Assembly (NCBI GenBank): GCA_023078685.1 | Contig: JALGAS010000004.1 | Location: 2,418,001-2,482,000, forward strand | DNA: 64,000 nucleotides | Direction of reading: 5' to 3' | From: Neopestalotiopsis rosae | Lineage: Eukaryota > Ascomycota > Sordariomycetes > Amphisphaeriales > Sporocadaceae | Shown here: one piece after another, positions 34,501 through 54,129 of the stretch | Numbering within the stretch: position 1 is the stretch's first letter | How the letters are laid out: the number at the start of each line of letters is the position of its first letter | Position numbers and translations under genes: made by a program | Notes under the pieces: generated by a model | The model's database searches: none | The model's input: only the letters and a program-made list of their open reading frames with translations | Told to the model about the DNA's origin: nothing

Positions 34501-36715
34501 GAAAGGTTGATACCCTGTAGTATAGGACTCTCAGAATCAGCTGGCGTGTAAAATCCATCTTTCACAATGACCGCAGCCGGACTCGAGGGCGAACGTGACT
34601 GATGCGTTATCATGCCGGTCAATTCGATGGATGCAGACAACGGGAGACCAGACGCTCCTCCCTCTCGTTCTTCGAAGTCGGTGGTATCGTGAGATTTCGA
34701 TGGCTTAAGGCAAGAGCTTCCAATTTCCTCCTCCAATAGATACTCTTGGATTCGGTCGAAGCAAGCTATGGATGCCATGGCATTTGGAAGGCAGGAAATG
34801 AGCTGTGAGATTGGCGACGAGACCAAGGAGATGATCGCAAGGGCAGAAAAAACATCAGCTACAGAGAGCTCTTGATCCTCGGTGCGTTTCGTCCAGAAAA
34901 CTGCACCGGCAATAATGACGACCGGGGTCATTTGGTCGGCAAGACGGCCTGAATGAAACGTTAGCCGGTACGAGACGTTCACCACAGTCTTCTAGCTCTT
35001 ACCCGTAGTCAGAATACGTATCAGTGCTAGACGAAACTTCCTCGACACGTCCAACTCGGCGACACGGAGATTTTGAATAGACGTAGACATGTAGCTGGTT
35101 AAACCCATGGTCTTGAGTGACTTTATCTGTGCTAGCATGTTCGACGAAGCAGACACTCGCTCTTTGATGGCTTTGCCCCAACTCATCCTTGCAGGGCGCA
35201 TTGCCTTCATTAATTGGGAAGTCAACAAGCTCGCACCTTTGTGATATTAGCAAGATGATTTGATAATTTTGAGTCGCGGGACAATAAGTTACCGGCAGCG
35301 GGAATTATCACGAAGAAACAGGCAGCCCCGACTTGCCTTTCCAACAAGTACAAGGCAATGCCAAGTTCAATGATGCTGGCCCATACTTCGTGAATAAGAC
35401 TGATTCCTGGTTCAATGCCTTCAATGTCTGCACTTATAAGACTGATGGCGTCGCCTTCGCTAGCCTTTGTGCTATCAAGCTCCAATGTCTTCTGAAATAT
35501 CAGGGCAACTAGGCCTCCTCGGATCATTGTCGTGAGTTGAAAATTGAGATGTTGATAGTAGGCACGCGTGACCTAGCAGAGACTGAGTAGGTGGTCTTTG
35601 AATGGTGAATGAGGGACAAATATCTTACTGCCATGCCAATATATACTAGAGCTGTGGCTCCAATAAGTCCACTAGCCATCTCACTTGAATTCGTGGTAGG
35701 CGGCTCGCCGACGAAAGTAATGATTCTTTGGATGAGGAACGGTTGGGCAAATCGCAAGGCTGAAAGACATAATCGCGGCAGGACAGTGATTGCACAGGTC
35801 GAGCTGAAAGCACGGAAAGTGGCGATTGTGAGACAGTGTTCTCGCTTCTTGTTGCCTAGAGGGGGACAATCAGTGACTTGAACTCCAAGGATGGGATTTG
35901 AGATCTCTACATTTATTCCACACCGCGCCAAGGCAGTCTTGCAGCTGCCGTGATGTGAACTTGGCCTGAATGATGGACAGGTCTCCAAGGGAGAGTAAGT
36001 CCCCGAACCCTTTACGGAAAAGGCTGTTCAGCCACCAAAATACGGTTCGGCTCAGTGGGCCACTTGTTTTCTCCACGGATGTAGTTTCTTTGAGCCCAGG
36101 TGCCAACAATGATCTCTTGGGGACTTCTTCCAGCAACAGCAACACAAGTTTGATCGACAAACTGGTCACAAAGATCGCTACAAGAGACCGAAGCTCTGCA
36201 CGTTGGAACAACGTTCGAGCTTGGGCGACATCAAGTAATATGGTGAGGAAAAGGTAACCGGAAAGAATCTTGGAGGGTGCAGTTGACCGTCTGTGCTCGA
36301 TGTAGAACAGAGCTCCAACAGCACCGGACGCAATCAAGGACAATGCGGAGGCGGGGATAGAGGCACGTGTCGGTAAGCTGTTGGGTAGAGACCAGAGAAC
36401 TAGAGTAACAAGCTGCAAGCAACACAGGATGCCTGCAGTACCCTGGCGAGTTTTGTCAGTATCGGCGTTCGCCCTTTACTGCGGTAGGGATGCGCATACC
36501 AGTTTTGCTCCCAAAAGCATACCAGCACGAACTTTGACATCTTTGCGACATAGCCAGCCAATGCGCGCGGCAGCAACGCAAATCAGCACCGCAGAAGGCA
36601 AAATTGAAAAAATGCTTTGCTCGAATAGCAAGGTAAAGTCGAACGCGCCCTCGAGGCGAGGCCCGAAGGCATCGTCGGTCGCGTTCATCCTGAGTGGATT
36701 ATCCCACAATGACAA
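31544..36715 (-). CDS. ABCC-type (MRP-like) multidrug ABC transporter, 1469 aa, 14 exons
   Basis: Exons: 36715-36500, 36442-35911, 35855-35629, 35572-35293, 35236-35003, 34948-34170, 34119-33957, 33898-33554, 33480-33366, 33308-33237, 33183-33068, 33004-32386, 32327-32244 and 32171-31544 (4410 nt, frame intact). The N-terminus (DDAFGPRLEGAFDFTLLFEQ) and a TMD0-like hydrophobic region are typical of fungal ABCC proteins. NBD1: Walker A GPVGSGKTT (about 657), signature LSGGQKQRV (about 750), Walker B ILILDDVLSALD with Asp instead of catalytic Glu, the usual degenerate site of ABCC. NBD2: Walker A GRTGSGKSS (about 1256), signature LSQGQRQ, Walker B IVLLDEPTSSID with the Glu present. It exports conjugates or natural products across plasma or vacuolar membrane. 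An in-frame Met at 36688 (MNATDDAFG) may be the real start. Neighbours suggest it could serve the RiPP cluster. Confidence 0.93.
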
Positions 36716-38030: not shown

Positions 38031-38076
38031 TAACGTCCGTCACCCACTTTTGGCCACCCCCCACATTTGGCCACCC
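38031..38076 (+). repeat. Left terminal inverted repeat
   Basis: 46 bp, exact reverse complement of 39845-39890; identity ends at the following base. Confidence 0.97.
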
Positions 38077-38182
38077 CAAAAATGCCTCACCGCTATAATG
38101 ACTATTAACTTTGAATTTTTACAATTCCACCAATTTTACCTCAATTGATTCCATTTTTTGCAATAACGTTCTTTCAGCCTAT

Positions 38183-39799
38183 ATGCCTCAGTATACAGAA
38201 GAACATATTACCCAGGCACTTGAAGCCGTCGCTAGTGGTGCCAGCGTTAAATCAGCTGCACTGGAATGGGGTATACCACGATCAACGCTGAAGAACCGGA
38301 TCAAGGGTCATCAGGCCAGAGATATAGCCTTTTCTGATTTGCAAAGACTTTCACCAACTGAGGAAAATCATCTGGCTGAGTGGGTTCGAGTTCAGGCTGA
38401 TCTAGGGCTGCCGCCATCCCATCAACAACTGAAGGAATTCGCTGAGCGTATCCTGAAGGTCCATGGAGATGTACAACCTCTTGGAAAGAACTGGGTGCAG
38501 TCCTTTATCAAAAGGAACCCATCAGTAAGGGTCCATAAGAGCAGAGCCATCGATTCACAGCGTGTAAATGGAGCTACAACTAATATTATCAGGCCATGGT
38601 TCAGGCACCTCGCTATACCTGAAATTATGGCTATCAAACCCACGAACCGATACAATATGGACGAGACTGGTATCCTTGAAGGCAGGGGATCAAATGGACT
38701 TGTTCTTGGATCATCAGAAGCTCGTTCTATTCGAAAGAAACAGCCTGGGTCCCGTGCTTGGACCACCCTCATCGAGTGCATCTCCGCAACTGGCAATGAG
38801 CTACCTCCACTTGTGATATATAAGGGGAAGAGTGTTCAGCAGCAATGGTTTCCTTTAGATCTGACCCCATTCCGTTCTTGGAGGTTCACGGCATCAGAAA
38901 ATGGGTGGACTTCAAATCCTACAGCTGTCGAATGGTTAGAAAAGGTCTTTATTCCTTCTACCCAGCCAGCCGACCCTCAAGAGGCCAGATTGCTTATACT
39001 AGATGGCCATGGAAGCCACGAAACCACGGAATTCATGTATATGTGCTTTGAGAACAAGATACACTTGATATTCTTGCCGCCTCATGCGTCGCATGTTCTT
39101 CAACCTCTTGATCAGTCAGTCTTCGGTCCTCTTAAGACAGCATATAAGAAGGAGCTTGGGAACCTTGATCAATGGGATGGTAGCACTGTTGTGGGCAAAA
39201 GGAACTTCCTAGTATGCTATGGCAAAGCTCGGAAAGCAGCCCTGACAAAAAAGAATATCATCAGTGGCTGGAAATGGACTGGGTTATGGCCTGTGAGCAT
39301 GGCTAAGCCCCTGATGAGCCCCTTGTTGCTTGAGAATTCGAAAACACCTGCTAAGCAAGCTGGAGAGGGTCACAAAGGGGATCTCGATAATCAGGGAAGT
39401 GGAAAATGGGCAGCAGATATATCAGCAGTGGCATGGTCGACTCCTCGAAAGAGGGATGAGCTTCGTGATCAATTCAGCTTATTCAGCAAGCTCGATATCG
39501 ATACTCCCACGCAGCGTCTACTATTTCGAAAGGTTCAAAAAGGCTTTGACGGGAAGGCTTACGAATTGGCAGTTGCCCATCGAAAGATCGAGGTATTGCA
39601 GGCACAGGTTGATGCCAGTAGGGCCAGGAAGCGTAGGAAGGTTAAAATAAGCCCAAATTCGAAGTTTGCCGATATTGAAGCTATCCGGAGGACTCAAATC
39701 GAGGTTGGCGAGGTTGACGATAATTCTGATGAATCCAGCGACCTTGAAAACCCCAGTGATCTTGAAGAATGCATTGTTGTAGCATCAGAACCAAGATAG
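38183..39799 (+). CDS. Fot1/pogo transposase (HTH_CENPB-like + DDE_1), 538 aa
   Basis: The N-terminal Psq-like helix-turn-helix (ITQALEAVASGASVKSAA, then WGIPRSTLKNRI) is followed by a CENP-B-type HTH (about 60-135; LGKNWVQSFIKRNPSV). The DDE_1 catalytic core has its three acidic residues: YNMDETGI, LLILDGHGSH and VLQPLDQSVFGPLK. There are 35 residues between the second and third Asp, a DD35D spacing as in Fot1-like elements. The C-terminus is acidic with a basic patch (SRARKRRKVK). The start at 38183 (MPQYTEEHI) is where family similarity begins; the frame is open to an ATG at 38111. No stop or frameshift, so the enzyme could be active. Confidence 0.95.
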   Translation: MPQYTEEHITQALEAVASGASVKSAALEWGIPRSTLKNRIKGHQARDIAFSDLQRLSPTEENHLAEWVRVQADLGLPPSHQQLKEFAERILKVHGDVQPLGKNWVQSFIKRNPSVRVHKSRAIDSQRVNGATTNIIRPWFRHLAIPEIMAIKPTNRYNMDETGILEGRGSNGLVLGSSEARSIRKKQPGSRAWTTLIECISATGNELPPLVIYKGKSVQQQWFPLDLTPFRSWRFTASENGWTSNPTAVEWLEKVFIPSTQPADPQEARLLILDGHGSHETTEFMYMCFENKIHLIFLPPHASHVLQPLDQSVFGPLKTAYKKELGNLDQWDGSTVVGKRNFLVCYGKARKAALTKKNIISGWKWTGLWPVSMAKPLMSPLLLENSKTPAKQAGEGHKGDLDNQGSGKWAADISAVAWSTPRKRDELRDQFSLFSKLDIDTPTQRLLFRKVQKGFDGKAYELAVAHRKIEVLQAQVDASRARKRRKVKISPNSKFADIEAIRRTQIEVGEVDDNSDESSDLENPSDLEECIVVASEPR

Positions 39800-39844
39800 T
39801 TTTTAATTGAAGTTCATGGTTGAAGTATAAGCAAATCTAAATTA

Positions 39845-39890
39845 GGGTGGCCAAATGTGGGGGGTGGCCAAAAGTGGGTGACGGACGTTA
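39845..39890 (-). repeat. Right terminal inverted repeat
   Basis: 46 bp, exact reverse complement of 38031-38076. Confidence 0.97.
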
Positions 39891-40040: not shown

Positions 40041-40914
40041 CTATCCAGCGGCTCCTGTTCCCACAATCAGTTCCAACTTCTGAAATGTAGCGGTTTGAAC
40101 AAGACATTACTTACTCTTCTCACGCACTTCCTCGGGATTGCATATCCATTGATCCCCTTTGGATTTGTGGTAGGGTACTCTAGTCTCATATCCATATTAC
40201 AAAGGATGTGCTGCCGTAGGTAATCGAAGCAGTGCCTGACGTGGTGGATTTCTGCGTCGGCCCCCGAGTCGTTCTCATCGCCATGCGGACTCGGTGTTTC
40301 CAGTGTGAGGTTGTGGAGAGTAGCTTCGAACATATTGTGCAGATAGTCCTTTACGAGGATTGGATTAGTATCGCAGAACAATGGTACTCGTGGATTTGTT
40401 GCGCGTGTTCATACCAGACAGTGATACTGATGGGTCCAAGCCGTACCGTATAGATTGGCTTTCCCATTCATTAGCACACCGGGAGGAAGTCCATACACTT
40501 CAGCATTTTCAATCAACGTGTAGCCATCTCCAGGTGGATAGTCCGATTTTGTGTCCCATTTCTCTATTTTCGAAGAGTCTCTCTCGTACTCCTCGGCAAA
40601 CGACCTAATCTCGTATTCCACTAATACAGTTAGCAAGTGAAGTTCATCCAGATTCCTTACATTTTCCTTTATTTATTTTTGGGGTACTCACGGGAAGGGA
40701 AGGGATTTGGAAATATCGATATGGGTTTCTTTGAGTTCGATAAGAGGTAAATGGAGAGAAGGGCAACGAGATTCAGTGTTACGATCAAGGCCATCCATCC
40801 ACGATGTAGTGATAGACCTTGGCGTTTTCGTGCATGTGACTGAGGCAGAAAGGACTCTCCTTCAGCAATATCCCCTTCACCACTTCTCTCCTCTGCATCT
40901 AAAATTTCTTGCAT
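40041..40914 (-). CDS. UstYa-family (DUF3328) oxidase A, about 233 aa
   Basis: Exons 40914-40692, 40620-40415, 40348-40115 and 40079-40041. Layout: short cytosolic N-terminus, one transmembrane helix (about 50-66, GWMALIVTLNLVALLSIYLL), lumenal domain. It has the two family motifs, HQYHCL and HHVRHCFDYLRQHILC, the H-x-x-H-C pairs thought to bind metal. UstYa-type proteins act in the secretory pathway on ribosomal peptides, forming ether crosslinks or other oxidations. The intron directly follows the codons of HQYHCL, as in the three other family members nearby. The C-terminus after KCVRR is uncertain: a different splice would give a Trp-containing tail. Lies only 150 bp from the transposon end, which has not interrupted it. 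Confidence 0.85.
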
Positions 40915-41981
40915 TATAGAGATTTCTGAAGACAATGTTATGGTATCAATAGCCGTCGTTTCTTAATGGTGCCAATTCAAGATTGTTGTACAAGTAGATG
41001 CCAATACGATTGCTCAGCTTACGTGCCCACAGACCTGGATCACCATCGGTCCGACGATCCTGCAAGCATCTTTGGCCATCTTTCACAAGGCGTTATGTTG
41101 TAGGCTGTAGTAGTCCGGATGAACTCCTAAAACCGGGTCTAGTCGCATGAGGCACAGAAGGAGGAATGTCCGGAAATGCCCGGATGGTTTTCCTTGCCAT
41201 CTCAGTGTTGGTCAAATGTCGCCAAGAGTCAACCCCTGTGATTGACAGATACCGTGGCAGCGAGAGATTTATTTGACGCGATGACAATTGGCCAGAGTCC
41301 TTGGCATTCCCGATGCAACCTTGCCCGGCGCATGTGGATCTTGGCGTGCACACAGTAGCGTAAGCGCTCACCAGATTGACGAGCGTAGTACTCAGTACAA
41401 GTTTCGCGCCTTGCTACCTTGCAAATCCCAAAATAGAGCAACCGTTCATTAAAAGCCTCTTTGGTAGGTTTCCGTAACGGATAAGCGAGGCTCGCCAGTT
41501 CTTGCTTGAGAGGGTTGACGGAGTCCGTTGGTACAGAATCGCCTGCAATAGACAGCATAACGAATGCATTTTGACCGCGGATAAAGCAGTACTATGCGAG
41601 TGTGGTTTACAAGGATACCTGGCACATAGAGCATTAAGCGATGGGCACGTGTGCAAACATTCAGAACGTATACCGAGGCCGCATTTTCCAACCACGCCCA
41701 TGGCCGCTGGGCTGTGCAACAACCCTTCGCATTTTGAACATGATTTTCCTCGACCTTATTAAGTACGCATTGTGACGTAGAGTCCAAAGTTATCCCATTA
41801 TTATCGAGGTTGGTCATCAATTGGCGTGCAGATGATTTTTCTGTTCAGGCGCTACTAGTGTGCTTATTTGCGAAGCCCCTCCTTCTCAAGAACTGTCAGA
41901 TCGAGAACCTTGCTAGATGAGGAAACCTTTGTCTTGGTACTGCCAGCATGTTTGGCGACCATAGCGCTAGATGGGTACCAA
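40915..41981. other. 1.1 kb with no confirmed gene, inside the UstYa cluster
   Basis: Several overlapping minus-strand ORFs of 90-125 codons (41093-41820), some Cys-rich, could be exons of a small gene or a decayed one. None shows a motif and no splice chain could be closed. One frame (41093-41371) ends in a Pro-rich tail. Left unannotated. Confidence 0.35.
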
Positions 41982-42983
41982 TTATCCAAGAATGCCCGTC
42001 AAATTATGATTTGCTTTATGCTCCAGTGTCCATCCCACCATAGCATTCCAGTCTTTGCACTGGTGCTCAACACCCCAACCATCAGTATCAGTACGCTTCT
42101 CTCCAAGAGGGGGTTCTCTCGAATGCTCGAGGGTCATATCGCCAGAACACATAAGGGATTGCCGGATATAGTCGAAACAATGGTTGACGTGATCAGGGAA
42201 CGGGGTGGGATCATGAGTATCCTTGTCTGTGCCGTGATAAAATCGGTGGGGAGCGGTGTTGTTGGCAACTGCTACCATCTCGTAGAACAAAATCCGGATC
42301 ATGCCCTAGATTTGAAACAAATGAGCCATGGTACATTTTACAATGTGTCATGCGAGAGTGTATACATACGAGGCAGTGGAGTTGGTGGTACACAGTCACG
42401 GAGTAGCGATCTATTCCTTCGTCAGTCGGAATACCGGGCTGGAGACCATATCGATCAGCAGCTTCAGGAACAAGGACGTAGCCATGACCTTCTGCCGTGT
42501 GGTTCAGCAAAAAGACTTCCGAGAACGAAGATAAGGACGTGAACTCATACCGGGAATCAAGCTGTCCCAGGCTGCATTACTATCCTTCTCTGGCGGTCTT
42601 GCAAACAGCTCTTGAAGATCAAATTTAACACCGTGGGTCTCGACTAGAAAACTGTCAGTTAGCATGTGCGCTGAAAGTCCCATGGAAACTTCAACTCGCT
42701 GTGACCCACAAGTTGGAACAAATGACTCCCTTTTCCCCGTGTTAGTCTTGACCAGATATGTTGCCCCAAGTACAGTGGCTGGTAGAACGATAATGATCAA
42801 AAGGCAGAGTAACCAGAATCTGCGTCGCTGCTTTTGCGACTCTGGTAGCCCCCCAAACTCTTTCGTAGTTTGAGGGAGTTGATCATCGGAATCATTGGCT
42901 GCCACCGGCCGATAGAATGGTTTCGGCCACAAGAACGAGCGAGACGCTGCTCCTCGAATGAAGTTTGCAATCATGTTCATCAT
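41982..42983 (-). CDS. UstYa-family (DUF3328) oxidase B, 300 aa
   Basis: Exons 42983-42551, 42515-42370 and 42305-41982. Membrane helix at about 67-85 (FWLLCLLIIIVLPATVLGA), then AWDSLIP, the segment usually found before the catalytic region. Motifs: YHQLHCL and HVNHCFDYIRQSLMC, followed by WGVEHQCKDWNAMVGW, the C-terminal HxC(K/R)DW signature. This is the longest and most canonical copy. The phase-0 intron after HQLHCL matches the other copies. An additional in-frame Met at 42980 is equally possible as start. Predicted role: oxidative tailoring of the cluster's peptide. Confidence 0.92.
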
Positions 42984-43834
42984 AGAGGGAAAAGAGCTGA
43001 AAATGGTTTCTCTTGAACGACACAAAACCTTCAGCAGAAGAGAAAAGTTTGATGCTGTGAGTAATGAAGGTTGTTCAAAATGAGTCTCTTGAAGTGTGTA
43101 TGGCAAAAACCATAGGTATTGAGGACTCCAAAGTGTGTTGCCATATGTTGAGAAAATTGTTATTCATTGGCCTAAATTTACTGTCCCTCTTTTTTGAGCT
43201 TCAGGGCTCCACTTGCGGATGATATGATACCATAATTGCATCCATGGATGTCATGCTCCTTCGCTTATGCAGTACCATTTGACTCTAACCAACATTTGCG
43301 CAGAAGTGCCATCCTGTGCGTTATGCTACCCGTTGGCGAGGACTCTTACGCTTCTGAAAATGGGCCTGGAATCTTTGATACAAGGTCCACGTCGTGAACG
43401 ATTTCCCGGAAGTAGAAGCTGAGGCATCCTATTGGTCACAACTCCGCTTGCGGCGCAGAAGTTCACGATGCACTCTTCGGACCTGTCATGTAACGGTGGC
43501 AACTAGCGTCACTTGATATTGGGATTTACCATGAATTCAAGAGGAACAGGGATATTATGGAGCATCTTACTCAAATGTATTCGGACTCCAAAAAGAATGT
43601 CATAACATGTGTCTCTACATGATGAGCGAGATGTATCCACTGACAGACAATTTGAAAGCACAGTTCATCCAATAGCATAACGTGATCATCGGATACAAGG
43701 ATATGCTGAAAATGCATACCTTCTGGTGGAGTCCTCATCATCACGTTATTTCTTGCCTATGTTCAACGAGGTTTCTTATTCTAGCAAACTCATCTTGGTC
43801 TGGGACTTTCATCGTTCTATCATTTCCACACATC
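42984..43834. promoter_or_regulatory. Divergent promoter region between UstYa genes B and C
   Basis: 0.85 kb between outward-facing UstYa genes. No coding exon recognised; presumably shared control, but no specific motif could be singled out. Confidence 0.45.
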
Positions 43835-44856
43835 ATGGCGCTCAACATGGCTGAAAAGGACCAAGAGAAAGATCAGTTGCTTGATTCTCCTCTCCCATCT
43901 GATCGAGCGAGATGGAATCGCGCACAATCAAACCAATGGTCAAGTACTGCTCGAATGTGTCACATTGTATCCTTGTACATCACAAACATTCTGTTCTTGA
44001 CTGGGATTGTCGTGCTGTGCATTAGCAAAGACAATTGTCGCGATCCAAGTCTTCAAACATATTGTGAGTCATGTTCTGCGATAGGAGAGTGGAAACTGTT
44101 AACTACTGACGGTATGTGAGCCCCTGCAATTGAGGCTGTTGAATATGAAGAAGTTGTCTTCCATGATCTTCCGGGAGAGTGGTCTCCGTATTTTGGAAAA
44201 CCAACCGATGAGAAGGATAAGCTTTGGGATGAACTATACGCTGGTCAGTCGAGCTTTATCCATATAATCACCATGGCACTGATGTGTGACGCAGGGACTG
44301 GATTCTTGTTATATACGCCAGAAGAAACGAAAAAGATGCCGAATCAGACTGTGGCACTTTCCGGTCCTGACGGTGACAGTGGTATCTACAACCTCGAAGT
44401 GTTTCATGCGCTTCACTGCCTGGTAGCCAGTCCTTCCTTCGTCTTCGAAGCGTGTTGTGAGGCTAACTCTCAAAGAATGCTATGAGGAAGTCTTTATTCC
44501 CAGAACGCTTTCCCGACTATAATATTTGGCGTCAAAACGGCACGCGAGATGACTTTTGGGAGATCCATCACAGTACGTGATTCTTCGCTCTTCTTACTCA
44601 TACAGAGAACATGGGCTTCTAGCTAAACTGAACAGGTCACTGTATTGATCGTCTGAGACAAAACATTCAGTGCGCAGGGAATATAGGCGCGAATTACTAC
44701 TACTGGAACGGTGACATTGAAGACAAAAGATGGATGATGGACTTGCGTTCTACACAGACATGCCGTAAATTTGAGAGTTTACAGGAATGGGCGAGGTCTC
44801 GAGATTACGTGGGGTGGAATGCAAGAGAAAGGAGCCACTTCACCAATAGTGGTTAA
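43835..44856 (+). CDS. UstYa-family (DUF3328) oxidase C, 265 aa
   Basis: Five exons: 43835-44063, 44121-44243, 44295-44422, 44476-44572 and 44636-44856. Membrane helix at about 47-65 (IVSLYITNILFLTGIVVLC), then FHDLPGEWSPYFGKP and KLWDELYA, the family's pre-catalytic segment. Motifs: FHALHCL, then HHSHCIDRLRQNIQCAGN and TCRKFESLQEWA at the C-terminus. The two H-x-x-H-C pairs are complete. Two more introns than copy B, but the intron after HALHCL is at the same codon. The only one of the four on the plus strand. The first acceptor used (gtgag at 44120) is unusual and could be shifted by a few bases. Confidence 0.88.
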
Positions 44857-46261
44857 AGTGACATCTACGTTTTCTGAACTGAAGCTTGGGTGGTCAAAAA
44901 CCTCTTTACAACATTTGGACTGTGGACACCTACACAAAGGGACAATGATCTCTCCTTATCTCAAGCCACTTCCGCGGCCTTTTTCCTCTCAATGACAAAG
45001 CTGCTCCGGTATCAAAATAAATAAGTTCTGGCACTTGCTATCGACCCTAGCTCTGTTGATCAGATTTCTTCCTTGTGAAAGTCATTGTATCTTTGGTGGC
45101 GCAACGGGGAGAATGCATTCCTCTTCTGCCGAGTCGTAGTCGCATATCATGTGAGCACTCTCGCCGTGTTCGGCACTTGTTACACGTTATGTTCGCGCCA
45201 AGATAAAAAGGATTCGGGCCTTGTACGATGTTCCAACGTGGCTGGGTTCGCGTGGGGGAGACCTGCCGGATCTCGTATTTCGTATTCCACTCAATCATAG
45301 AAACTTTATTGTCATGCCCGCTCGGCCTACCAATCTTGGCGGGCCGAGGAATACTGGTTTTAACTGGAATGTATCCTGTAGACAAATGAAGTCCGGCGTG
45401 GACGTTGTACTAGGAAAGGAAACCGCGGATCTCAGCGTGGGGAATCTAGTAGGGGGACCGCCGTGTCCACGGGGGGTGTTCGACTATTATTTCCGCAATT
45501 GCCGAATTTCGACAACGAAATGCTACCGATATTCTGGTTCAGCTATGAAAAGCTGTATGCAGGTCGGCAGGGTTGTCACCACCCGCACCAATCGGAAAGG
45601 CGATTATTCAAATCCGAAAGCGACGTGAACAGGGCGGTGAGACTAAAATGCGGGCCGCACTTCGACATAATCAAACTTTAATTGAAAGAATAAGTAGCTA
45701 TGGCTGGTGCCTGAATCGTGCCAAGTACTCCGCACACGGATGGATTGCCATTCCAGCATGCTCGGTAGCATTTTCTTGATGGCTGCGCTTCGTAGCCTGT
45801 CAAGATAAGGTCATGCACCAACGGAGCAGCATACCCATTGCCTCGGAAACCCAATCGGGGCCCTCGCCGGGCTTCAATTCAACACAAGATGATACGATCA
45901 ATCCAACTCAAGATGACATGATCTTCATTATCCATAAGCCTAGGCCACCTTGCAGCGTTCCTGTCACCTACACCAATCTATGCTCTCTCCAGTTTCATGC
46001 GACAAGGGGGTACTGCGTTATGCTTGGGTATGCATTGTGCTTTTGTAACGTGCCCATGCGTTTTGCCTGCACACCACGGCCACTCAATATGCTTATGGCA
46101 ACCAATGCTCATCGTCTGCAAGCGCAATTCGAAATTCGATTCAGGCGCAATCTCAAGTGTATCCATTCTAATGCTACGGAATACGAGAGACTGCAGTATT
46201 TCCAGTTTTCCGATATTCCACACCAGGATCGAGTGTATCCTCAACCATAATTGTTTCTAGA
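44857..46261. other. Intergenic, 1.4 kb, convergent
   Basis: Between the 3' ends of UstYa genes C and D. ORFs up to 145 codons exist on both strands without recognisable features. A short imperfect direct repeat (caagatgatacgatca / caagatgacatgatct) lies at about 45886-45922. Confidence 0.4.
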
Positions 46262-47408
46262 TCAAGGGAAGGTCGGCAGCTCATGCGCGACTGACGTCTT
46301 TGTCACGGGTCTAACAACAGGTGCGGCATGCTTTTCAGCTACTTCCAAGATGGCGACAGGATCGCGGCATTGGTGCTTGGCATAGTCTCAGTAAACCGTC
46401 CGTGGAGAGAAAGACACCCACAGAGAGAAGGGGCTGAGGAGAGAAAACAAAGCATGTACTCACTGTCGTGCTGAAATCCGGGTATGGCGCCGGCCCGACA
46501 TTTCGGACCCAATGAAACATAACCAGCCCCATGTCGCCATTGCACATCAGTACCTGGCGCAGGATATCGATGCAGTGGTCTGTGTGTCTGCGCAGCGACT
46601 CGGCTCGATCAAATGTCCATGCGTGATCACGCGTGCTATAGTATTCCGCGTGGGTCCACTTACGGAGCAGATTCTGGGCGACCAACAACCTCATATCAGG
46701 TAGGTGTTGAACACTAATCATGTCTCAAGCGGTGCATAACCGACTTACCAAGCAGTGGAGTTGATGGAACATCTCCAGGGTCGCCATGGCTCCACCGCCA
46801 TTCTCTGCGCCTAGATTCGCCACGGTCGAAGGGGATTCTGCGTTGCCCGAGTCTTTCATTTCTTGCTCCGTGGCTGCAATCACAACTGAGGTTCCGTCGA
46901 TCCATTCTGAAAATGTTAGCTTTTCGTTCCCAACATAACGGTTCCCGGGATGTGATAGGTACGTACTGCTTTGAGTAAAACGATCCCATGCTGCGTCGAG
47001 CTCAGCACTCGGTTGGCCCTTGAACACATTGGTCACATTGATGGATCCTTCGAATCGATGCTGATGTCGGGGGCTAAGTTCGCGCGCTGGGCCTAGAGTA
47101 AACTCACGTCAGCTTGGAAAGGGCCAAGAGACTGGACAAGGAAACGAATTCTTACGCCAAGCAAGGTCGGAATCTTGACAGTGCACGATAGCAATGGAGT
47201 ACTTGGTTACCACGGTACCAAGAAAAAAGGCAATAATGACAGATCCGATCCAGAGAAGCATTGGAAGCAGTGATCTCCAAGTGTTTCGTTTGTACGCAGG
47301 AGATTGTGCCGTAGGTGCGTCAATGTCCCCCGTGTCAAACGGTAGAGAGTCGCTCTGACTGACTCTCTGGTATTTCAAGGGAAGATTGACGTCAAATGAG
47401 GGCGGCAT
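46262..47408 (-). CDS. UstYa-family (DUF3328) oxidase D, 286 aa
   Basis: Five exons: 47408-47156, 47092-46967, 46906-46749, 46673-46464 and 46375-46262. Membrane helix at about 46-66 (LLPMLLWIGSVIIAFFLGTVV), then AAWDRFTQS. Motifs: FHQLHCLNLLRKW (the intron splits between L and N, as in the other copies) and HTDHCIDILRQVLMC, ending with HQCRDPVAILEVAEKH. All H-x-x-H-C residues are present. A Ser/Asn/Gly-rich insert (SPSTVANLGAENGGG) precedes the first motif. The exon-4 acceptor at 46674 was chosen because it restores the consensus NLLRKW. Confidence 0.9.
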
Positions 47409-48736
47409 GATGAAAGCTAAACGTCCCGAAGACGATAGATTGTTGTGCAAAGTGAGAATCAAATGTGCTAGCAAAAGACTTTGGTCTCCTGCCTGGCCGT
47501 ATGTCAATAAGGCCAGCCGTATCAATTGTAAGCAAGAAAATAGCTTTCCTAACGTTGACTACCGTGATTTTAATTGTTACTTTTAAATCTAGATAGTAGG
47601 TTACGGCTGACAAAGCATTAGGAAAAGTTGGCACAGGACTTTGGCTTTTCATTGACTACATACGTAGGAAGTATCTTTCGATGTCTTTTTAGGATTTATG
47701 GCACGGTCAAGTGATAACTGTTTTTCAGTGCAAGAAAGGATATCGTTGCTTTGGTAGGTATCTGGTACATGAGCTCCGATGATCTCAATCAAATATCAAC
47801 CGGCAGCAGTGAGGAGGACTTACAGGGAGCCCAGGTTCATATCTGCGCCGCTCCCTTTAACGTCAAGTCTCGGACATTGGCCTGAATAGGGAATACCTAG
47901 GCCAAGGCATAGTCCATGTTTAGATGCTTCTGTGATATATGATTGGTTCTCACATATCCATGGTTCGTCTCTCTGGTAGACCCAGTCCCGCTTGACTATA
48001 CACCCAACCATGTGGAGTGTGAACCAACCGCATATGCAATGCAGGCCAGCCCTGGGATGAACATTCATGTTTTAGACAACCCAATCCACTTCTGATTCAC
48101 GTGGTATCATCTCTTTGGACTGGACCACATTGATGCATAATCTGGCGGACATGCCTGAATCAGTACTCATATTTTCACTAAACGAAAATTCCTCTCAACA
48201 ACATGACTTGTCAGATCACGGAGTCGAAACTTTGTGGAAATTAATTCTCGTTTATGAGGAAACTGAGCAAGCATTACGTGGAAGTATTCATGATGCTACT
48301 GACGCTACCGCGTAAGTGCATCACGATGTATGAAAGATTATGCAGTGTAGATAGATAATGACCAGACTCAAGTGAATCTCTTTGCTTCAGATACTTGCCC
48401 CTCTTTCGAGATGTTGGTACTCGTTAGGAGGGCTCTCGTGATATGCGAGAATGTGATAGACGAGGATATGGCGATGCACATACATCCAATTCGTAGCGCC
48501 TCCGGGGCGGACATGCTTAGCGACCACTACGGACCGGATCGAACCCCTGACATAACGGCTCGTGTTTCGGTGGATCTCTCATCTACAATATTTCCAGTAG
48601 CTATGCTCTTCCCGAAGTGGTATATGTATATATTCCAGCTTTCGTCACTCGAGATGGTCTCTGAAAAGCAGGAATCCAATCTCAAGTCTCCATCTCTACT
48701 CAAACCCATCTTATTCTGTGTTTCTCAATCATCAAC
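47409..48736. other. Intergenic, 1.3 kb; upstream of the repeat-peptide gene
   Basis: Divergent region between UstYa D and the precursor gene. A small ORF at 48133-48315 (start ATG CAT AAT) continues poorly and has no motif. Nothing else supported. Confidence 0.4.
48621..48634 (+). promoter_or_regulatory. Candidate TATA box of the precursor gene
   Basis: tatatgtatatatt, about 105 bp before the ATG at 48737, a usual distance in filamentous fungi. Confidence 0.35.
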
Positions 48737-49196
48737 ATGGCTTCCCTTTGCAAAATCCTGATCCTTCTTACCGTCGTCCAACTTATCTTGGCTGCCCCAA
48801 CTGTACAGACTGTTGGCGGGATCCAGGCACGGGTATGAAAAACGATGAGACTCTAACTCTATTCTGACATTGGACTGACCTGACCGACAGGAACCATCAC
48901 CCGACAACGACGTCGATGGTGCCAACCTGAGATCATACTGGCCTCGTAAAGCAGCTCCTGACAATGATGTCGATGCCGCGGACCTTCGTTCTTACTGGCC
49001 CCGAGACGCAGCTCCCGACAATGATGTCGATGCTGCCAACTTGAGGTCTTACTGGCCCCGTGACGCGGCTGCCGATAACGACGTTGATGCTGCCAACCTG
49101 AGATCTTACTGGCCTCGAAAGGCGGCTCCTGACAACGACGTCGACGCTGCTGACTTGCGATCGTACTGGCCGCGCGAGGAGGTTTCCAAGGATTAA
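48737..49196 (+). CDS. Candidate RiPP precursor: signal peptide plus five 19-residue tandem repeats, 133 aa
   Basis: Exons 48737-48832 and 48891-49196, 58-bp intron (gtatga...gacag), phase 0. The signal peptide MASLCKILILLTVVQLILA is followed by about 13 residues and then five repeats of DNDVDxAxLRSYWPR with a 4-residue linker (KAAP, DAAP, DAAA, KAAP; EEVS after the last). The segment LRSYWPR is identical in all five. Repeats are acidic at the front and aromatic/basic at the back. Such secreted multi-copy peptides are the precursors (UstA, PhomA, AprA type) of fungal dikaritin RiPPs. The flanking genes, four UstYa oxidases and an S41 peptidase, fit that pathway. No KR or RR site separates the repeats; cleavage after PR or PRK would have to replace it. 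A repeat-containing secreted effector or structural peptide is the alternative. Confidence 0.85.
48903..49187 (+). repeat. Tandem repeat, 5 units of 57 bp, coding
   Basis: Units begin at 48903, 48960, 49017, 49074 and 49131, each exactly 57 bp. Differences are mostly synonymous (for example gac/gat, aac/aat, tct/tca/tcg) with few amino-acid changes: A/G, N/D, K/D/E, P/A. Purifying selection on the repeated peptide is therefore likely. Confidence 0.95.
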
Positions 49197-49655
49197 ATAG
49201 TCCTGTCACTTCTTGATCATTATGACCAATGAGTGTCTTGGTCATCCTAGTATGACCAAGATCTGACCTTACCCCATGGAATACGCTTAACTTCACTCGC
49301 TCTTTTATCATATATACGACATCTTTCTGTTTGTTCGTGTGTTTTCTCTACATGGGGAGAATCGTTACATATAAAAAGCAGGCAAATGAATAAAATTCTC
49401 TATTCCCTGCAGGTCTGAGTCTCTATACAAACTTCTTGTGACAAATTTCTCGGACACAGTCAAATGCGAGATGCCGCGCGAAATCCCGATATCTCATTTT
49501 TATACTGGATTCCCGGATTGGCTTGTTTACTTCTGCAAGTGGGTCCTTCTTGTTATCCAGTGCACGAGCGGTATATAGTTCTGGCTTTCGCTCCTCTTCG
49601 CCCAAGTGTACTATGTCCTTAAATTTCATTCCAAAAACACAAGCTGACAAATATC
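49197..49655. other. Intergenic, 0.46 kb
   Basis: 3' UTR of the precursor and promoter of the peptidase. An inverted repeat near 49218-49254 (tcatTATGACCAATG / tcctagTATGACCAAG region) may form a weak hairpin. A 75-codon minus-strand ORF at 49423-49650 is not supported. Confidence 0.4.
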
Positions 49656-52007
49656 ATGCACTCATTCCTCATCCTGTCAATTTTTAACGCGGCTGCCCAG
49701 GCATGGAATACACCGTGCGCGGAGGTCTCATCGTCATGGGCGACACAAGCCACTGCAGCTTTCACGCGGACCCGCCGAGCTCAAGTCCCAGCTCAACTTG
49801 CATACGAATGTCTCATGTCAGTTCCGGTCGACACAGAAGGTGACATCAAACAAATTGAAGAGCTGAAACATTTCTTGGAATTTCAATCTACACTCAACCA
49901 CCTAAATACTGGTCACTACATCAATATCGAAGGTGCTTTTCACAACAAGCCTCTCAATCTACTAACCGAGCTCGACTATACTGCGCAATCGATTGAAGAC
50001 CGGACATACCATAGCGACTTCGAAGTACAGCTTGCCCTACACTCCTTATTCCGGCGTGCCAAAGACTCTCATCTGCGGATCTTCCCCGATATGCTCGAAG
50101 TTTTCTTATTTGTCCGGCCCGAAACGAAGCTCGTCTCAATATCAGAAGATGGTCTGGATTTGCCTCGGCTATATCTACTCTCAGACCTACATCTTGCAAG
50201 CGCCTCAGGCAATTTTTTGCCATCATGCGTTGAGACTATCAATGGCAAAAATGCTACCGAATATCTGCAAAGCTTATGGACTCACGGTACCTACCACGAC
50301 GAAGATGCGCAGTATAACAGCTTTTTTCCCAACCCTGCCGCTGAGGTGGTGGGGATGGATAGTGGTGGACAGTTTCACCTCACGCAAGGTCTGTACGATG
50401 GACCAGTCACAACGTTTGGATTCATGAACGGCTCGAGGGTAGTGAATGAGAACGTTGCCATGATTCGCGAGTTTTACAACTTCTCCAACATCAATGACGG
50501 CTCCTCTTTCTTTACAAAATTTTGTCAGGGGGACACGAATGAGGTTGAAGCCAATTCCCCGACTCAGACGTCGGCAGAATCGACCGAACCCATCATCTCA
50601 CGTTCAGACACTTACATGCTGCCCGAAGAATATCCAGAACCCCTTATTACTCAAAGTGGGCTCTCAGTCCAAGGTTATCACCTCGAATCTCGTCGACATT
50701 ATGACGTTGCTGTACTCGCTCTTCCAAATTTCAAACCGATTGCGGAACCCAGACAAGACGCGGATGAAACGGTCGCGGGATTCCTCGAAGCCCAAGAAGT
50801 TCTCCAGGATTTCATCATGCAATCGAAACAGAAAGGATTGAAAAAGCTTATTATCGATCTTCGCGGCAATAGCGGCGGAACCATTGACATGGCATTTGAG
50901 TTCTTCAAGCAACTATTCCCAAGTGTGGAACCGTTTGGGGCATCTAGGTTTCGGGCTCATGATGCTTTCTATATGTACAGCAAGTCAGTAGCGGATCTGA
51001 TCGAAAGCGATACAGCCATGGCGATGAGCAACGGGTTGTTTAGTGAAGTGGCAAGGAGCACCGCGAACTTCCAAAATCTTCTGAACATTGAAGGGATGCC
51101 ATTCGTAAATTTTACTACATATTACGGACCATACAGAGAAGAAGGTGATGCTTTCACCGCAATCAGACGATACAACTTCTCGAATCATTTGGGAGGACAC
51201 ACATTAGCGCCGTATGTCAATATTACCGGCTACGATTTTGCCCTGCTCGCATCACCCACCCAACCATTTCTACCTGAGAACATGGTTATACTACAAGATG
51301 GAATCTGCCAATCTGCTTGCGCTATATTTTCGCAGCTGATGAGAGAGCAGGGCCATGTTCAGACAATAGCTATTGGCGGCCGGCCTCGGAAGGAGCCAAT
51401 GCAGGGCGTAGGCGGGACCAAAGGCGCGCAGCTATTAACGTTTGACTCTATCATTAAACACATGCAAACAACTCTTCGCATCACCTCAGTCTTACACGGT
51501 AAGGACGGGGAACGAAAGCTCCTGCAGACGACGCCCGCTGGGAGCCTGCTGAATGCTTCTCAGATACGCCTCCGTTCAGCGCGGTTCAGTGGAGATGGGC
51601 ACGCCAATGGAGCAGTCAACTCACTTGATAATATGGGACGAGTAGCTGGTGAGCTCGTCCCTCTAGAGTTCGTATATGAGGCAGCCGATTGTCGCTTATT
51701 TTACACGGCAGAATCGTATATTAGCCCCACACGGCTGTGGGAAATGGCAGCGGATGCTAAATGGGGCGATTCGAGCTGTGTTGAGGGGAGTATGAGGCAT
51801 GCGACGGCCATTGGATCCATGCGTGGGGAGCCTTTCAATACAAGCGAAAATCTGAAATTCATAGGGTTTGTTCGCTTTTCAATCACGTGTATGATAGTGT
51901 TTACATTCATTGTCGGGGCATTTCACTCGCTACGGAAATCTCCATCTGTTCCAGAGGATGATTGTAAGGGTTACCATCAAATCAATAGCGCCGATTTGGA
52001 CCCTTGA
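49656..52007 (+). CDS. S41-family serine peptidase (UstP/PhomP-like), 783 aa, secreted and membrane-anchored
   Basis: Single exon. Signal peptide MHSFLILSIFNAAAQAW, a large lumenal/extracellular part with many N-glycosylation sites, and one C-terminal transmembrane helix (about 738-758, FSITCMIVFTFIVGAF). The S41 core has LIIDLRGNSGG (about 398-408) and VILQDGICQSACAIFSQL (about 544-561), whose Ser after the Gln-Ser-Ala-Cys context is the expected nucleophile of the tail-specific-protease/CPAF-like family. Fungal S41 peptidases of this size occur in dikaritin RiPP clusters (UstP in ustiloxin, PhomP1 in phomopsin), where a role in precursor processing is proposed. Same strand as, and 460 bp behind, the repeat precursor, which supports joint function. 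Confidence 0.9.
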   Translation: MHSFLILSIFNAAAQAWNTPCAEVSSSWATQATAAFTRTRRAQVPAQLAYECLMSVPVDTEGDIKQIEELKHFLEFQSTLNHLNTGHYINIEGAFHNKPLNLLTELDYTAQSIEDRTYHSDFEVQLALHSLFRRAKDSHLRIFPDMLEVFLFVRPETKLVSISEDGLDLPRLYLLSDLHLASASGNFLPSCVETINGKNATEYLQSLWTHGTYHDEDAQYNSFFPNPAAEVVGMDSGGQFHLTQGLYDGPVTTFGFMNGSRVVNENVAMIREFYNFSNINDGSSFFTKFCQGDTNEVEANSPTQTSAESTEPIISRSDTYMLPEEYPEPLITQSGLSVQGYHLESRRHYDVAVLALPNFKPIAEPRQDADETVAGFLEAQEVLQDFIMQSKQKGLKKLIIDLRGNSGGTIDMAFEFFKQLFPSVEPFGASRFRAHDAFYMYSKSVADLIESDTAMAMSNGLFSEVARSTANFQNLLNIEGMPFVNFTTYYGPYREEGDAFTAIRRYNFSNHLGGHTLAPYVNITGYDFALLASPTQPFLPENMVILQDGICQSACAIFSQLMREQGHVQTIAIGGRPRKEPMQGVGGTKGAQLLTFDSIIKHMQTTLRITSVLHGKDGERKLLQTTPAGSLLNASQIRLRSARFSGDGHANGAVNSLDNMGRVAGELVPLEFVYEAADCRLFYTAESYISPTRLWEMAADAKWGDSSCVEGSMRHATAIGSMRGEPFNTSENLKFIGFVRFSITCMIVFTFIVGAFHSLRKSPSVPEDDCKGYHQINSADLDP

Positions 52008-52429: not shown

Positions 52430-52819
52430 CTATCCACAGATGTAGTGCTTCCAAACATCATGTGGAGCACCCACGCACATAATAAGCTTCGCATTCACTG
52501 GTCTGCAATTCCCATACACGAACTTGTCGATGCGCCGTTTAACAACCTTCGGATTCTGATTCGTCCCGCTCTGTGGGTCACAGCCTTCGAGGAAGTAGGT
52601 GATCCCATCAAGAATGAAGTCGTGACCACAGGCAGTGCTACCCTCCGAAATGATTGGAGCTGCCCCGACACATGGGGTCAGTCCCTCATGCCAGGCGACG
52701 ATGTAGTTGAGGCCACCTTCTCTCTTTTGTTCGCCGATGGCTATGGCGCCTTGGACGATAGGCAGGACTGATACGACGAGGAGCAAAACTGTACGAGCGA
52801 CAGAGCTTTTTGGATGCAT
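52430..52819 (-). CDS. Small secreted cysteine-rich protein, 129 aa
   Basis: Single exon. Signal peptide (about 1-25: SSVARTVLLLVVSVLPIVQG) and a mature part of about 104 residues with six Cys (contexts PCVG, ACGHD, GCDPQ, NCRPV, MCVG, YICG), enough for three disulfides. A KRR at about 93-95 could be a kexin site. No known family recognised. In size, secretion and Cys content it resembles fungal effectors or antimicrobial proteins, but this is a class description, not a function. Lies next to the RiPP cluster on the opposite strand. Confidence 0.75.
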   Translation of the reverse strand: MHPKSSVARTVLLLVVSVLPIVQGAIAIGEQKREGGLNYIVAWHEGLTPCVGAAPIISEGSTACGHDFILDGITYFLEGCDPQSGTNQNPKVVKRRIDKFVYGNCRPVNAKLIMCVGAPHDVWKHYICG

Positions 52820-54129
52820 CCTGATGGACTTGTTGTTTGGGTCGGTGGTTTGGCGCTTCTTAAACCGAAATCTTGATGTAAGGTTTAATGATGATTTGTA
52901 AAATGGTTTGATCGACTTAATTTATCTCAATCAACATCATCACGGAATCTTTTGTCTTCTTCGTAGTGAGGAACCTGCGTGGGAATAAGAGAAAAAAGAG
53001 AAGAAACAAAGAAAGGATCAGAAGAAAAGGTAAACACGAGCTTTAGAGGTCGATTGCTCAAGTGATACCTACCGGTGGTGCAAACCAAACTGACCAAGTG
53101 GCGTAAGTGGCGTGTATTGTTTGCTTTCATCAATCTTGACAGTTGCCACGTTTGACGCACATGGAAAGTAAGTTTTATAGTTACATCAAAAAAAAAAAAA
53201 AAAAAAAAAAAAAAAGGAAAAGCAAATCGCCTGTATCAAACAAGATATGGGCTTTATACGAACGCCTTTATAGGCTTGCATTGATAATCATAAGATCACG
53301 AGATTATATGCATAATGTCATGATATATCCCCTGTTGGGTCGTTCCGATTTTGTTGGGTCAAGCCTTGATGCAGACCAAACAGCACAAAGTGGAACTCGA
53401 GCGAATTCACCGTACGCTTCATTGAATAAGGTGCAGCTTGAGCCTGGGTCAGCCTTGCCTTCTTTTCCTGACATTACTTCTTGGGTAAACTTTACCAACA
53501 AAGTTAATCCCATCACCCATCAGGTCATATACCCTCTTTTTTTACGGTTTTATCATCATCATCATTTCTAGCTTCCGCCGTGCAATGCACACCCATTTTT
53601 TTTTTACGGGACCTGGCGCAGTGTTCAGCCGATGCAGCATACAGCTAAAGCTGTAGGCCCTGCATATAAAAGCGCCGTGCTTGATGCCCGTTGCAACGCC
53701 CATCGTGGCACATCCACAAATGTAGTCTCAACGGCAACGCCGTAAAACGCCAAACGGAATCACCGTTCAGAATATTCACCGTCGTTTTCGGATTTTGATA
53801 GGCACGACGCGTTGCCGTGTAGCTAAGAGCTTGGTTTGGATTCGCGGCCAACCCCGGGGATCCGAAGCTCAATACTCATCTGCGGCGATAAGACAGCAAT
53901 AATACTCTTCTTCCATTTTAAACCTTTGCTGCAAAATTCTAGCAGTAGATACAGCGCTCTTCAGGTCTTTGCTGCGATTGAAGCAGCTAAATCGGCACCT
54001 TAAAATCTTGACTGCGACCCAAGCAAAAGGCACTACCACAAACGCCGGTCAAAGGGGAACTCCGGCGCCCCAAACCATTGCCAGTCAGAAAGACGTACGG
54101 CACCAGACACCAGACCACCGGTCAGCTCG
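52820..54129. other. Intergenic, 1.3 kb, with an A28 tract
   Basis: 53188-53215 is an uninterrupted run of 28 A. 53570-53620 also has T-rich runs. No tail-like feature (target duplication or LINE ORF) was seen, so the A tract is called simple sequence. The 54 kb end may contain decayed upstream remnants of the oxidoreductase pseudogene. Confidence 0.5.
53188..53215 (+). repeat. Mononucleotide A28 tract
   Basis: 28 consecutive A residues; a hotspot for length polymorphism and sequencing error. Confidence 0.95.

Follow-up and report, generated by a model that had tools for sequence, protein, structure and literature searches.

A candidate dikaritin-like gene cluster with a repeat precursor lacking Lys-Arg and Arg-Arg sites in Neopestalotiopsis rosae

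The DNA analyzed here (the window) is a stretch of 64,000 nucleotides from the ascomycete Neopestalotiopsis rosae, corresponding to C12:2418001-2482000 (contig JALGAS010000004.1) in a 53.77-Mb assembly of 17 contigs (GCA_023078685.1). It carries four genes of the UstYa/DUF3328 family, named A to D, a two-exon gene for a small protein composed of a leader and five repeats, and a large S41 peptidase gene. The locus is described as a candidate cluster for an oxidised ribosomal peptide, related to the dikaritins, and the features identified are listed in Table 1. No description of this cluster was found among the papers listed from the open-licence PubMed Central (PMC) literature, as judged by titles, abstract openings or passages.

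Table 1. Features of the window, with the PF11807 score for UstYa proteins; aa, amino acids
Feature	Position	Strand	Description
UstYa A	40914-40067	-	236 aa; exons 40914-40692, 40620-40415, 40348-40067; HQYHC and HVRHC; 46.4 bits
UstYa B	42983-41982	-	270 aa, 4 exons; HQLHC and HVNHC; 99.8 bits
UstYa C	43835-44856	+	265 aa, 5 exons; HALHC and HHSHC; 154.7 bits
UstYa D	47408-46262	-	286 aa, 5 exons; HQLHC and HTDHC; 167.5 bits
Intergenic region, UstYa D to precursor	47409..48736		Divergent, UstYa D (-) and precursor (+)
Precursor gene	48737-48832 + 48891-49196	+	133 aa; two exons (96 and 306 nt), intron 48833-48890
Five repeats	48891..49175	+	57 bp each; from Tandem Repeats Finder (TRF) and codon table
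S41 peptidase	49656-52007	+	783 aa, single exon; PF23658 and PF03572; signal-peptide-like start, C-terminal hydrophobic helix
Pogo/Tc1-like DNA transposon	38031-39890		DDE_1; 565-aa open frame; 49-nt inverted ends, 98% complementary
ABC transporter exons	31547-36475	-	TMD0-like domain
Small open reading frame (ORF)	52433-52921	-	Secreted-looking (by eye), cysteine-containing; no Pfam match

The repeat precursor

The precursor is composed of the leader MASLCKILILLTVVQLILAAPTVQTVGGIQAR, which ends in QAR, five 19-residue repeats of the kind xAAPDNDVDAA(D/N)LRSYWPR, and the tail EEVSKD. The leader is hydrophobic and, judged by eye, resembles a signal peptide; such a leader followed by a repeated core is a feature of dikaritin precursors. 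A first annotation made from the letters alone (the sequence-only reading) had proposed a secreted five-repeat peptide at 48.7-49.2 kb: the five repeats were confirmed, and an intron that it did not mention was added.

The 57-bp array obtained a TRF score of 299. Comparison of the repeats with each other (10 pairs) gave 89 synonymous and 44 non-synonymous nucleotide differences, corresponding to proportions of 0.67 (pS) and 0.10 (pN), with a ratio of 0.15. Within these pairs, the DNDVD block accounts for 24 synonymous differences and the LRSYWPR block for 46, for a total of 70 synonymous and no non-synonymous differences in the two blocks. Residue changes are confined to the four leading positions and to the A/G and N/D linker positions. 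Because of the TRF score, and since codons vary while residues stay, the array is not a product of chance; the codon pattern also rules out that the repeat is antisense or low-complexity sequence arisen by chance.

The same figures bear on the possibility that the cluster is a remnant whose sequence is intact but which is silent or has been disrupted, the adjoining transposon being one potential cause. The pogo-like element ends about 180 bp from the coding end of UstYa A, and is one of seven full-length places in the genome at 100% identity, window copy included, a number suggesting recent activity. However, no modelled gene overlaps the element, intron modelling leaves an open frame in each of the six genes, and the array is old, as judged from pS among the repeats, yet its residues have been kept; a remnant is therefore considered very improbable.

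A search for paralogues of the precursor in the genome found none, both matches being its own exons. The only homologue found with E <=1 was P0066 (JN550_013415) of Neoarthrinium moseri, containing two repeats ending in LRSYWPR. Here the first D of the DNDVD block is replaced by E in the second repeat and E is found at the N/D position, the blocks being otherwise kept.

The UstYa genes

Four genes with pairs of the UstYa motif H-x-x-H-C had been reported by the sequence-only reading at 40.0-47.4 kb. They were modelled between 40.07 and 47.41 kb, and all four products exceed the 25-bit threshold of PF11807. An alignment of the four proteins shows both HxxHC motifs to be invariant, and the proteins also have in common a D-x-x-R-Q motif and two further cysteines. 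In CctR, a DUF3328 protein, two coppers are bound via HxxHC(x)nHxxHC in a binuclear site, O2 is needed, and a pair of cysteines holds the dimer together (PMC12435403); UstY enzymes are likewise described as dicopper enzymes (PMC12186524). By analogy, the two additional cysteines of UstYa A-D may do the same as the dimer-linking pair of CctR.

Gene structures were obtained by intron modelling and several splice sites are tentative, including AAG acceptors in intron 2 of UstYa A and intron 3 of UstYa C and a GAG acceptor in intron 1 of UstYa C; two acceptors of equal score in intron 1 of UstYa D produce proteins of 286 or 284 residues. The full open frames obtained in this way rule out that the four genes are fragments. 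According to their coordinates, UstYa B and C share a divergent intergenic region. Words common to the intergenic regions were counted and compared with shuffled sequences: one seven-mer was common to all four regions, versus 0.97 in the shuffles, while the regions of A, B/C and D/precursor had three eight-mers in common versus 0.9, and 16 seven-mers versus 11.3, a slight excess that is not relied on.

At least 78 UstYa exon matches are present in the 53.8-Mb genome, forming 28 loci when merged at 20 kb: the UstYa genes of this genome are clustered. No tyrosinase, methyltransferase or flavin monooxygenase was found among the 40 ORF stretches, a subset of those in the window, that were scanned with Pfam, in agreement with the sequence-only reading.

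A related unit in Neoarthrinium moseri

A profile search for UstYa proteins (E <=1e-10) retrieved 57 proteins out of 2736 candidates, the top two being JN550_013413 and JN550_013414 of N. moseri. In a BLAST comparison against the 57 proteins, the N-terminal part of JN550_013413 matched UstYa B (73.7% over 251 aa) and its C-terminal part UstYa A (70% over 100 aa); this entry joins the B and A orthologues in one annotation, and they follow each other as the two genes do along the direction of transcription in the window. JN550_013414 matches UstYa D over its full length (72% over 286 aa), and K491DRAFT_694509 of Lophiostoma macrostomum is a relative of UstYa D (61%). No clear N. moseri orthologue of UstYa C is present among the 57 proteins, the best match being P0090 (39% over 140 aa).

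The N. moseri B+A, D and precursor entries bear the consecutive tags 013413, 013414 and 013415, and the contig is 77,807 bp long in each case and is assumed to be the same. Since N. moseri has all of them under consecutive tags, UstYa A, B, D and the precursor look like a conserved unit; by the same comparison, UstYa C and the S41 peptidase seem less secure members. Orthologues of the repeat gene devoid of UstYa neighbours, which the sequence-only reading had named as evidence against a cluster, were not seen in N. moseri, the one species checked, by locus tags.

The S41 peptidase

The large S41 peptidase noted by the sequence-only reading at 49.7-52.0 kb corresponds to a 783-aa ORF that begins about 460 bp downstream of the stop codon of the precursor gene, in the same orientation. 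A homologue search, limited to scoring the 7999 candidates with the most words in common, gave 65 matches; 52 of them were aligned with the window protein, and H139 is kept in 52 of the 53 rows and S553 in 51. An AlphaFold2 model (mean predicted local distance difference test score, pLDDT, 86.9) produced 61 Foldseek matches with E <=0.001, including CPAF (3dor; E 2e-9, TM by target 0.58). The protein has the S41 domain with PDZ and the conserved residues of the CPAF-like S41 type; H139 and S553 are probably catalytic, the latter presumably corresponding to CPAF S499.

A conventional explanation, in line with the sequence-only reading, is that all six genes form a dikaritin cluster; the precursor would then be the substrate of the four UstYa proteins and of the S41 peptidase, with the latter releasing or trimming the peptide. 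Besides the close spacing, it is favoured by the fact that phomopsin-type clusters count S41 family peptidases among their conserved members (PMC6514808), by the CPAF-like fold and kept residues, which make the modelled enzyme look active, and by an estimate, obtained by hand arithmetic, according to which one of the five S41 loci would lie 5 kb or less from any of the 28 UstYa loci by chance with a probability of about 4%. On the other side, no N. moseri S41 protein is named among the 65 homologues listed, though the precursor and UstYa proteins are listed for this species, and Pestalotiopsis fici, whose PFICI_13922 is 95% identical to the window S41, has no UstYa protein or precursor among the matches listed; these absences could, however, be due to genes left unannotated in one or the other species. 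In a quick tree, the window S41 groups with P. fici and three other proteins (100*), within a 19-row group containing Pleosporales proteins, whereas three 'ustP'-named Colletotrichum rows are found in other groups. The lack of a clear N. moseri orthologue of UstYa C among the listed matches also speaks against a six-gene unit. The four other S41 loci of the genome are all far from UstYa genes, the nearest being at 404 kb and 1.39 Mb, and two being on contigs without UstYa. The adjacency seen by the sequence-only reading stands; the link of the S41 to the pathway is weak, its membership uncertain, and the six-gene explanation rather unlikely.

Processing sites

Secreted repeat proteins of fungi have been sought by the sites at which Kex2 frees their repeats. 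These are given as KR, RR or KK by Le Marquer 2019 (PMC6339444), while the rule of Umemura 2020 for Kex2-processed repeat proteins (KEPs) requires at least three tandem repeats between KR, KK, RK or RR (PMC7329392). The window precursor contains no KR, no RR and only two RK in its 133 residues, and falls outside this rule; its N. moseri homologue has no dibasic pair at all. Instead, each repeat ends in Pro-Arg and all five are preceded by Arg, which is followed by the dipeptide pairs EP-SP, KA-AP, DA-AP, DA-AA and KA-AP. Dipeptides of the X-A and X-P type are those removed by Ste13 (PMC6339444).

In order to obtain a control from the same genome, repeat-bearing open frames were sought in 20 of the 28 UstYa loci, on at least partial sequence and in many cases with 1.5-kb flanks; precursors may have been missed under these conditions. 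A repeat precursor was seen in eight of the 20 loci, the window one included, and in the remaining 12 none was seen. All seven other precursors (L001, L002, L007, L011/L049, L014/L025/L048, L043 and L046), for part of which leaders were modelled, have KR in the array; the standard type is thus in use in this genome, and the window locus departs from it.

The dipeptides could also mean that the repeat gene encodes unmodified linear secreted peptides, similar to pheromones or effectors and released by Kex2 and Ste13, the UstYa genes belonging elsewhere. In alpha-pheromone precursors, Arg is typically followed by Ste13-like dipeptides, whereas precursors of RiPPs (ribosomally synthesised and post-translationally modified peptides) are not predicted to be acted on by Ste13 (PMC6339444). 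Against this, the unit is listed together with UstYa genes in N. moseri, and DUF3328 genes were reported near none of 227 alpha-factor-type and only 3 of 216 other pheromone-type KEPs (Umemura 2020, PMC7329392). Moreover, LRSYWP does not contain the pattern W-C-xxx-G-Q-x-C-W. This is the pattern of Sordariomycete pheromones; a genome search with it gave no match, and the genuine pheromone gene was likewise not located by it. Linear peptides are considered improbable, somewhat less so than a remnant.

Interpretation and proposed maturation

The reading preferred here, with a probability of roughly 0.7, is that the locus is a biosynthetic cluster for an oxidised ribosomal peptide, dikaritin-like, with a precursor that would be processed differently, at single arginines. 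The core set would consist of UstYa A, B, D and the precursor, UstYa C and S41 being facultative or lineage-specific.

In the maturation proposed, the 133-aa precursor would enter the secretory pathway by means of its leader. A single-Arg endoprotease, either a Kex2-like enzyme acting at Pro-Arg or another one, would cut after QAR and after each WPR, as the repeat boundaries suggest, producing five 19-mers. In yeast, Kex2 can cleave the precursor of the K1 toxin behind Pro-Arg; the passages of the literature searched contained no statement of such cleavage. The X-Ala/X-Pro dipeptides at the front may then be taken off by a Ste13-like dipeptidyl peptidase, and the final Arg by a Kex1-like carboxypeptidase, to leave DNDVDxxxLRSYWP 14-mers, such as DNDVDAADLRSYWP. 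The UstYa enzymes, copper oxidases by family, would use the invariant DNDVD block for recognition, and LRSYWP would be the part that they oxidise or cross-link, most likely via Tyr and/or Trp; finally, peptidases would trim the recognition part, the neighbouring S41 being one candidate. The size of the proposed 14-mer is close to that of the 13-14-mers into which the ustiloxin precursor is thought to be cut before cyclisation (PMC6514808). Of the cyclic or oxidised product with Tyr-Trp in its core that the sequence-only reading had suggested, the Tyr-Trp part is supported by the repeat, and cyclisation stays conjectural.

Several points weigh against this interpretation. Single-Arg processing is read from the sequence alone, and the modified peptide is a proposal built on genes, motifs, constraint and locus tags. 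The two RK pairs are placed at repeat junctions, 1/2 and 4/5, though cutting at RK alone would not free the repeats. In N. moseri the dipeptides are GL-SP and NA-AP, so that the full X-A/X-P pattern is found in one of the two repeats. The site list of Le Marquer 2019 has no single Arg, and Ste13 is not among the enzymes predicted there on RiPP precursors (PMC6339444). The unit was found in one other species only, where gene order was deduced from locus tags and the common 77,807-bp contig size, not from DNA. No convincing promoter motif is common to the intergenic regions, and the UstYa structure model, made for P0068, the N. moseri orthologue of D, was weak (pLDDT 71) with no PDB match at E <=0.001; the alignment used for this fold included 42 of the 57 profile-search proteins.

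A bolder proposal, held tentatively and at less than even odds, is that fungal RiPP precursors of the kind seen at this locus form a class of their own, freed at single arginines (Pro-Arg), trimmed by a Ste13-type enzyme and then oxidised by UstYa proteins, i.e. a hybrid of pheromone and dikaritin maturation. It is based on the contrast between the Ste13-type dipeptides seen here and PMC6339444, in which no Ste13 is predicted for RiPP precursors. If this proposal is correct, surveys built on dibasic sites miss the class, and some UstYa clusters counted as precursor-less may have a precursor. Two published surveys sought repeats between dibasic sites (PMC7329392, PMC6339444), a rule by which the window precursor would not be retrieved. 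Should single-Arg precursors prove real, the dibasic requirement ought to be abandoned when precursors are sought next to UstYa genes. The two-block repeat (DNDVD, LRSYWPR) is in addition a ready substrate for tests of UstYa recognition and of action on Tyr-Trp.

Neighbouring features and other loci of the genome

The Pogo/Tc1-like transposon lies beside UstYa A and, past it, about 3.6 kb to the left of this gene, are the exons of an ABC transporter, which could serve the cluster or be unrelated. The small ORF is located to the right of the S41 gene. Searches of the PDB with sequence profiles gave in one case a single match, a designed protein with E 0.32, and in the other none; a search of a plasmid collection gave no match.

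A second, larger UstYa cluster (L042-L044, C12:2343001-2370000), with 15 UstYa exon matches, is found about 100 kb away. It contains a KR-type precursor (L043, from about 7420, plus strand) with three ACVSSTEEDGTVVKR-CAIPWTKNYGDYDE units and, at C12:2348925-2350786, a 73% relative of the window transposon. Elsewhere in the genome, a KR/KKR precursor with DSDYTIYK units, reminiscent of the phomopsin/ustiloxin type, is part of another UstYa cluster (L046, about 500-1032, plus strand). A Trp-rich KR precursor with RWAWTKWEDA units lies near UstYa genes at C10:5.907 Mb (L007, about 1-436, minus strand), and a KR array with at least 15 copies of YLVKYEGD units near those at C1:6.47 Mb (L049, about 8.8-9.5 kb, minus strand). 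One to two RiPP genes per genome were reported for ten Pestalotiopsis genomes (PMC13237565), versus no fewer than eight repeat precursors next to UstYa loci in the present genome; the methods differ, but counts of RiPP loci for this group may be too low.

Comparison with known systems

Dikaritins include ustiloxin, phomopsin and asperipin-2a, and also victorin. Known dikaritin precursors carry the core C-terminally in each repeat, preceded by an acidic stretch. The window locus resembles them in having UstYa/DUF3328 oxidases adjoining a secreted multi-repeat precursor, with Tyr in the repeat. It differs from them in having no KR or RR between repeats, in the Ste13-like dipeptides, in the core LRSYWP, unlike the YAIG of ustiloxin or the FYYTGY of asperipin (PMC6514808), and in the tailoring enzymes (tyrosinase, methyltransferase and flavin monooxygenase) missing among the window ORFs scanned.

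DUF3328 is considered the class-defining enzyme of dikaritins (PMC12048977), and all four window proteins have two HxxHC motifs; where dikaritins are defined by a KEP precursor together with UstYa (PMC10512285), the window precursor is left out by its lack of dibasic Kex2 sites between repeats. Since the enzymes agree with one definition while the precursor fails the other, the cluster is called dikaritin-like. The dikaritin-type assignment of the sequence-only reading is accordingly kept in part: the four UstYa genes, the repeat precursor and the N. moseri unit sustain it, and the absence of the dibasic sites of known dikaritin precursors, which had gone unnoticed, limits it.

With the KEPs of Le Marquer 2019 and Umemura 2020 the window precursor shares a signal-peptide-like start and a leader followed by tandem repeats of 8 to 100 aa; it differs by failing the dibasic rule for three or more repeats, its N. 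moseri homologue having none of KR, KK, RK or RR. The likeness to ascomycete alpha-pheromone precursors consists in Arg followed by X-Ala/X-Pro dipeptides before the repeats, whereas the core has no Cys and no GQ and is not pheromone-like. The four UstYa neighbours are a further difference, such genes being almost never found at pheromone-type KEPs (Umemura 2020, PMC7329392).

The KR-type clusters of the same genome, such as L042-L044, differ from the window locus by the KR in the array of all seven and by repeats without sequence homology to the window repeat. They resemble it in combining multiple UstYa genes with a repeat precursor, and L043 has a hydrophobic leader that ends in ...AAPxxxxxAR.

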